21,236 bases of DNA from a bacterium (GTDB taxonomy: Bacteria > UBP7 > UBA6624). Each line of letters starts with the position of its first letter. Positions within the stretch are counted from its first letter, which is position 1. Location of the stretch: the NCBI GenBank assembly GCA_002716355.1, contig PBAU01000004.1:1-21236 (forward strand), written 5' to 3'. The notes under the pieces were generated by a model, which saw only the letters and a program-made list of their open reading frames with translations, was not told the DNA's origin and made no database searches. A program made the position numbers and the translations under genes. Below, piece by piece: positions 2,678 through 3,463 of the stretch.

Positions 2678-3463
2678 ATGAAAAAATATGTTGTAGCAGG
2701 TTTAGGTGAAATTGGAACTCCAATATCCAAATTATTATCTAAAAAACACAATGTAATTGGTTATGATAAAAATCCTAAATTAATGAATATAAATAAATTT
2801 AATAAATCTGAATCAATACCAACTTCCTTTTTGCACATAGCAATTCCAGTCAATAAAAATTTTGATTCAAATATTTTAAAACTGAATAAAAAATTTCTAC
2901 CTGAATGTATTGTGATTCATAGTACTATTAGCCCTGGAACTACTCAAAGAATTCAAAAAAAATTATCGATCCCATTAATTTTTAGTGCAACTAGGGGTGT
3001 TCATAAAAGAATGTTAAAAGATCTTCAAAGATATACCAAATTCTTTGCAATATCATCATCTGCTCCAAGAAAACAATGGGCAATTAAAGAATTTAAAAAA
3101 CAAATGAAAAATTGTGGAATAAAAACTAAACAAATGTCAAAACCTGAAGCTTTAGAATTAGGCAAAATTATTTGTGATACTTCTTATTTGGGTTGGTTGA
3201 TAAATTACTCACAAATCAGTAATACAATTGCTAAATCTTATGGAGTTGATTATGATGAAATGTGGGAATTTTCTGATGAAATTCACAAAATTCTAGGAAA
3301 TCGTCCTAAATTATATCCTGGTTTCATAGGTGGTCACTGTGTGATTCCTAATCTAGAATTAATTCACAATGAAACTCTTGATATAATAAATTCTCTAAAT
3401 AATTCATATCTAAAAAAAGTAAAAAATGCAAAATCCATAAATAAAAAATATCTAAAAAAGTGA
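2678..3463 (+). CDS. Short nucleotide-sugar-dehydrogenase-like protein lacking the C-terminal domain
   Basis: The Rossmann start has GLGEIG at residues 8-13. HSTISPGTT matches ESTIEPGFI of the full-length dehydrogenase at 84-1454. The central helix ELGKIICDTS aligns with NAVKLTTNVF and keeps the catalytic-type Lys (K163). GGHCVIPN keeps the catalytic Cys (C221). The protein stops at 261 aa, just after the helix following the Cys, where relatives continue about 150 residues into the nucleotide-sugar-binding domain. The residue matching Asn in the TTN segment is Asp here. The termination point is a domain boundary, and the minus-strand gene starting 9 bp downstream leaves no room for a lost half, so this looks like a natural short form and not a frameshift. 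The substrate is unknown. It could be a dehydrogenase acting on a different, possibly non-nucleotide, substrate, or a regulatory subunit. Confidence 0.75.
   Translation: MKKYVVAGLGEIGTPISKLLSKKHNVIGYDKNPKLMNINKFNKSESIPTSFLHIAIPVNKNFDSNILKLNKKFLPECIVIHSTISPGTTQRIQKKLSIPLIFSATRGVHKRMLKDLQRYTKFFAISSSAPRKQWAIKEFKKQMKNCGIKTKQMSKPEALELGKIICDTSYLGWLINYSQISNTIAKSYGVDYDEMWEFSDEIHKILGNRPKLYPGFIGGHCVIPNLELIHNETLDIINSLNNSYLKKVKNAKSINKKYLKK

Follow-up and report, generated by a model that had tools for sequence, protein, structure and literature searches.

The short open reading frame at positions 2678–3463 of the window encodes a protein that is an ordinary member of a large, apparently unnamed archaeal family. 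The family keeps the Rossmann motif and the catalytic-type Lys and Cys of NDP-sugar dehydrogenases, but the UDP-binding domain is absent and much of the remaining active site is uniformly replaced. The protein is probably (estimated probability of about 0.6) a functional, stand-alone two-domain NAD-dependent oxidoreductase that acts in cell-surface glycan synthesis on a substrate that is not UDP-held. No name for the family was found in Pfam, NCBIfam or the open-access papers searched, and no Pfam or NCBIfam model claims the window protein above its cut-off.

Genomic context and domain architecture

The window, the whole stretch of DNA analysed, is a complete contig of 21,236 bases (C4; GC content of 0.28) from a bacterial metagenome-assembled genome (MAG G000). 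The other sampled contigs of this MAG have GC contents of 0.28–0.38, mostly 0.33–0.38, and those inspected encode proteins read as bacterial. The tetranucleotide composition of the window correlates at 0.99 with that of Nitrosopelagicus loci, versus 0.83–0.93 with the other contigs of the MAG. The window is thus probably a thaumarchaeal contig that was misbinned into a bacterial MAG. Records named as Nitrosopelagicus or Marine Group I contain the same gene with its neighbours, and the misbinning therefore leaves the finding unaffected. A search for the AmoA family in this MAG was uninformative, as the family matched no control. L005, whose record is titled as a Nitrospina MAG, has this thaumarchaeal locus too and could be another case of misbinning.

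Three consecutive genes at the start of the window are relevant to the short protein.

84–1454, (+): full-length NDP-sugar dehydrogenase homologue, 456 residues, with three UDPG_MGDP_dh Pfam domains and TIGR03026 above cut-off
1444–2652, (+): asparagine-synthase C-domain (amidotransferase-type) protein between the two dehydrogenase genes (PF00733, E = 3e-36)
2678–3463, (+): short NAD-binding, GGHC-containing protein, 261 residues, group A of the archaeal short family

The initial annotation had placed the reading frame, K163 and the GGHC motif with C221 exactly where they are found, and had correctly located the full-length dehydrogenase two genes upstream; the asparagine-synthase-like gene lies in between. 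A convergent glycosyltransferase-like gene lies 9 bases beyond the end of the short gene, which leaves no space for a remnant of a lost domain. It is followed by epimerase-, aminotransferase- and glycosyltransferase-like genes (labels judged from sequence), and the gene set as a whole looks like a surface-glycan cluster. The asparagine-synthase-like gene is a conserved neighbour of the short gene in loci L004–L007, L066 and L084. Its product, for which Pfam lists no glutaminase domain, possibly amidates a uronic acid.

The 84–1454 enzyme is itself non-canonical, with GIGRIG (Arg at the Tyr10 position) and GGPCLPINS at the Cys, where Lys is changed to Ile and the general base Asp to Asn. These motifs are identical in L004, L006 and L084 and nearly so in L008. 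In L004 and L006, a second, canonical GGSCLPKD dehydrogenase is encoded ∼1 kb upstream on the opposite strand.

The short protein was initially described as lacking the nucleotide-binding half of the enzyme. That description holds for the C-terminal substrate (UDP)-binding domain, which contains Lys320 and is absent, but not for the NAD-binding part, which is kept; in addition, profile–profile comparison reveals that a segment of ∼36 residues inside the Rossmann domain is missing from the short form. Only 40 residues separate C221 from the C-terminus of the window protein, compared with about 170 in full-length dehydrogenases. Across the short family, 28–69 residues follow the Cys versus 168–172 in full-length enzymes, total lengths stay within 245–297 residues, and no match to PF03720 (UDP-binding domain) was found in the short proteins.

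Conservation of the active site

Residue conservation was counted in 31 diverse short-family members that are 29–74% identical to the window protein. The motifs of the window protein are listed below with their counts.

2699–2716, (+): GLGEIG, Rossmann nucleotide-binding motif; Glu11 occupies the Tyr10 position of NDP-sugar dehydrogenases and is Glu in 31/31
2921–2926, (+): Ser82-Thr83, equivalents of the invariant Ser117-Thr118, mapped by profile–profile alignment; 31/31
2993–3004, (+): R106-G-V-H109, a motif particular to the short family, located where NDP-sugar dehydrogenases have the Pro-Glu loop; R106 and H109 in 31/31
3155–3166, (+): E160-x-x-K163, equivalents of Glu201 and the catalytic Lys204; 31/31 (K163 codon, 3164–3166)
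3329–3340, (+): GGHC, which contains the catalytic-type Cys221 and is where inteins are inserted in relatives; 31/31
3350–3352, (+): Asn225 at the position of the general base Asp264; Asn in 31/31

The residues invariant in all 31 members are G8, G10, G13 and Asp30, which form the Rossmann GxGxxG motif and the equivalent of the NAD-type Asp29, together with Ser82, Thr83, R106, H109, Glu160, Lys163, Thr168, Gln179, the GGHC motif, Asn225 and Asn241. By profile alignment, E160, K163, G218, G219 and C221 represent Glu201, Lys204, Gly257, Gly258 and Cys260, respectively.

Eighteen residues are invariant across 229 NDP-sugar dehydrogenases, the general base Asp264 among them (PMC4794789). Eleven of these are kept in the short family (the three Rossmann glycines, Ser117, Thr118, Glu201, Lys204, Gly257, Gly258, Cys260 and Asn287), and seven are not (Thr83, Pro140, Glu141, Asn208, Asn219, Asp264 and Lys320, in NDP-sugar dehydrogenase numbering). 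The position of Glu141 is filled by Thr, Val, Ile, Ala or Ser, and that of Pro140 is Pro in only 20/31. Asn219 is replaced by Gln, and the Thr83 position of the NDP-sugar dehydrogenases by Val, Ile, Phe, Tyr, Gly or Cys. The Asn208 position corresponds to Thr168 by alignment and to Asp167 by an ungapped reading in groups A and B; neither is Asn.

As the replacements are uniform, they point to re-tooling of the site and not to decay. Tyr10 is 98% conserved in NDP-sugar dehydrogenases and is credited with thioester hydrolysis (PMC4794789). Since the equivalents of Asp264, Tyr10, Glu141 and Asn208 are consistently changed, the classical four-electron reaction does not follow from the retention of Lys and Cys. 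The equivalent Asp-to-Asn change was reported to be detrimental in the human enzyme (PMC3184952), and classical four-electron oxidation is therefore not to be assumed.

An intein interrupts the short gene of L013 (7995–9914) exactly at GGH|C, with PF14890 (46.8 bits) and the endonuclease domain LAGLIDADG_3 (42.1 bits) both over cut-off. Four further genomes (G278, G279, G288 and G301) contain a frame of 641–642 residues in which the match is broken at the same point. Strictly conserved active-site motifs are favoured intein sites, and the insertion at GGH|C thus fits a functional GGHC motif.

Distribution and selection of the short family

A search of genome contigs retrieved relatives at 49–75% identity from Nitrosopelagicus, Nitrosopumilus and other Nitrosopumilaceae records. 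Matches are present in 154 of the 250 genomes of the Nitrosopumilus family (the family of G102, the Nitrosopumilus MAG that contains L009). A phylum-wide profile search matched 137 of 398 genomes, although a minority of these matches are weak and may be other proteins. The 97 other genomes from Bacteria, the assigned domain of the MAG, yielded no match that resembles the short family by score and coverage; the profile matches there are partial and lie nearly all in frames longer than 400 residues. A viral or plasmid origin was rejected, as no relatives of the short form were found among the viral contigs, plasmids and phages searched.

The family divides into three groups. Group A, the type in the window (54–75% identity), resides in variable glycan islands with surface-polysaccharide genes. 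Group B (40–44% identity) exhibits a fixed synteny in 20/20 loci, in which DnaJ-, DnaK- and GrpE-like genes and a Rossmann-like protein are followed by a DUF354 gene with the short gene and by ABC-2-type transporter genes. Group C (29–37% identity) occurs elsewhere in the phylum; a DUF354 gene is nearby in 12/20 loci, and several loci include an acetyltransferase of the hexapeptide type.

The DUF354 gene, which is GT-B-like, thus stands beside the short gene in two of the three groups. It is present in 287 of the 398 phylum genomes, and only its adjacency is therefore informative, not mere co-occurrence with the short form. Weak, sub-cut-off matches of this neighbour to MurG and PseG suggest UDP-sugar handling, and it is a matter of speculation that it serves as a partner that processes a UDP-sugar for the short protein. 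All group B loci also encode, beside GrpE, an unannotated 380-residue protein (8271–9410 in L063) with chance-level Pfam matches and a weak resemblance to the N-terminal part of dehydrogenases (hhalign probability of 65, E = 6e-5).

The short family is under purifying selection. Of nine pairs compared, eight have dN/dS values of 0.05–0.18; the closest pair, with a dS of only 0.06, reaches 0.26. Two copies are broken. The copy in L009 (8001–8804) has an in-frame stop near codon 65, and its genome (G102) also contains an intact group B copy; the copy in L012 (7989–8769) has a frameshift near codon 77. Both breaks could be real or assembly errors.

The short architecture looks functional, as the initial annotation proposed: the short forms make up a conserved clade in which Lys and Cys never vary and which stops at a common domain boundary. 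The findings that would have spoken against it, namely close relatives that are all full length and random loss of Lys or Cys among the short forms, were looked for and not found.

Ancestry, proposed function and comparison with known enzymes

The relationship of the short protein to NDP-sugar dehydrogenases is faint in single-sequence searches and clear in profiles. The best Pfam match reaches 20.7 bits, below cut-off, as are PF03446 (12.3 bits; cut-off of 21) and PF01210 (12.5 bits; cut-off of 23.1). Scores to TIGR03026 (cut-off of 189.8 bits) are 34.6 bits for the window protein and at best 94.6 bits for group C. The initial annotation had aligned the short protein with the full-length dehydrogenase upstream. 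BLASTP detects only 36 similar residues between the two (E = 0.006), whereas profile–profile alignment by hhalign bears out the claim, matching nearly the whole short protein to residues 20–318 of the 456-residue enzyme (E = 1.8e-15). Among solved structures, profiles match UDP-ManNAc and UDP-glucose dehydrogenases (PDB 4r16, 7e-18; Cap5O, 2.5e-16; 7kws, 2e-11) and, at 1e-3, 3-hydroxyisobutyrate dehydrogenase. Judged from these profiles, the short family is derived from, or shares an ancestor with, NDP-sugar 6-dehydrogenases of the UDP-ManNAc/UDP-glucose type. A branch with 99% support splits the short from the full-length forms, but the tree contains only ten full-length proteins, all from related archaea, and the split is thus not dated. 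Since its catalytic positions are uniformly replaced, the family is a relative rather than a standard member of the NDP-sugar dehydrogenases. By membership, the short protein falls outside the NDP-sugar dehydrogenases, since several of their defining features are absent; it belongs to a homologous, re-tooled two-domain archaeal family, which probably functions in a similar manner.

An AlphaFold model of the window protein alone, a check proposed in the initial annotation, has a pLDDT of 76.7 and a pTM of 0.75 (an earlier model from 8 sequences, with a pLDDT of 57, was discarded). Its best structural match is UDP-glucose dehydrogenase (1dlj/1dli), over chain residues 1–307 of 402, and residue 307 lies near where the UDP-binding domain begins. 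The GGHC region (residues 207–224) is modelled with a pLDDT below 50. Moreover, the Z score to UDP-glucose dehydrogenase (15.2) is nearly equalled by those to ketopantoate reductase (14.9) and glycerol-3-phosphate dehydrogenase (14.7), and several members of the beta-hydroxyacid/6-phosphogluconate dehydrogenase superfamily score at the same level (Z of 13–15). Chemistry is therefore not readable from the fold, and the model supports the architecture only.

In the proposed function, NAD would be bound by the Rossmann domain of a protein that would homodimerize through its central helix and work in the oxidation direction. Lys163 and Cys221 would line the active site as in homologues, with Lys163 stabilizing charge and Cys221 probably binding the substrate covalently in a thiohemiacetal or thioester intermediate. 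The absence of the UDP-gripping domain and the replacement of the general base, the hydrolysis Tyr and the loop Glu make a sugar substrate that is not UDP-held most likely; candidates are sugar phosphates, free or lipid-linked sugars and sugars presented by a partner. A more specific version, which is improbable, is that a Cys-bound acyl (uronyl-type) intermediate forms without the UDP grip and is passed to a non-water acceptor (e.g. ammonia, an amine or a thiol), with the DUF354 GT-B-like neighbour possibly supplying the substrate. Such a reaction would explain why the UDP domain has disappeared along with the general base and the hydrolysis Tyr, and would define a distinct archaeal enzyme class.

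The short protein could instead be a two-electron dehydrogenase or reductase of the beta-hydroxyacid/6-phosphogluconate type, in which Lys163 serves as the acid–base residue, Cys221 has a structural or substrate-positioning role and no thioester is formed. Two domains are the rule in that superfamily, the structural scores of ketopantoate reductase and glycerol-3-phosphate dehydrogenase come close to the best one, and the residues needed for a second oxidation and for hydrolysis (Asp264 and Tyr10) are replaced. However, profiles place NDP-sugar dehydrogenases far above 3-hydroxyisobutyrate dehydrogenase (7e-18 versus 1e-3), and the short family has an unvarying GGHC precisely where the catalytic Cys belongs and retains Asn287, which leaves the two-electron enzyme possible but rather unlikely. 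To our knowledge, neither GGHC nor Asn287 is a feature of the beta-hydroxyacid dehydrogenase superfamily.

It had also been suggested that the short protein may form mixed oligomers with the full-length enzyme, encoded two genes upstream; it would then be an accessory or regulatory subunit. Both dehydrogenase genes and the asparagine-synthase-like gene are syntenic in Nitrosopelagicus-type loci (L004, L006, L007, L066 and L084), and dimerization through the central helix is typical of homologues (PMC4794789). Nevertheless, no PF03720 match was detected in 15 of 37 short-form genomes, some of them long single-contig assemblies (e.g. G208, G216, G189, G191, G275 and G117), although 14/14 control genomes have one. 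The two genes are not neighbours in most of the short family, and G102 and G105 carry the short form with no match to the neighbouring dehydrogenase. A heteromer with the full-length enzyme is therefore not the general function of the family and is very doubtful for the short protein, although it may occur in the lineage of the window, where the genes are syntenic. The idea of a functionless, decaying remnant of a full-length enzyme, to which the missing domain and the broken copies in L009 and L012 could point, is hardly tenable given a phylum-wide family with invariant active-site residues, mostly low dN/dS values (0.05–0.18) and consistent lengths. Truncation, frameshift and pseudogene formation were rejected because of the dN/dS values, because the family is conserved and because no room is left downstream of the gene.

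The short family would be relevant to how surface sugars are made in archaea. Clearly more than half of the Nitrosopumilus-family genomes sampled contain it, a family to which abundant marine ammonia oxidizers belong, and it recurs across the phylum. It retains the Lys and Cys known from textbook covalent dehydrogenases, while the rest of the active site is replaced and the substrate-gripping domain is dropped, and it thus represents a natural experiment on the separable parts of the dehydrogenase mechanism.

The short family shares GxGxxG with Asp, Ser-Thr, the Glu-x-x-Lys helix, GGxC, Asn287 and a glycan-synthesis context with UDP-ManNAc/WecC-type dehydrogenases (4r16 of Pyrococcus horikoshii and 3ojl, Cap5O) and UDP-glucose dehydrogenase (1dli/1dlj). 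It differs from them in the absence of the UDP-binding domain and Lys320, in a Rossmann domain shorter by ∼36 residues, in the changes of Asp264 to Asn, Tyr10 to Glu, Asn208 to Thr and Asn219 to Gln, and in the loss of Glu141 and Thr83. With 3-hydroxyisobutyrate dehydrogenase, ketopantoate reductase and glycerol-3-phosphate dehydrogenase, it has in common a Rossmann and an all-helical domain, a similar length and a similar fold score, but the sequence profile match is much weaker and GGHC is invariant in the short family. The short protein and the 84–1454 enzyme share ancestry over residues 20–318 and an Asn four residues after the Cys, whereas the latter has the UDP-binding domain, GGPC in place of GGHC and GIGRIG in place of GLGEIG.
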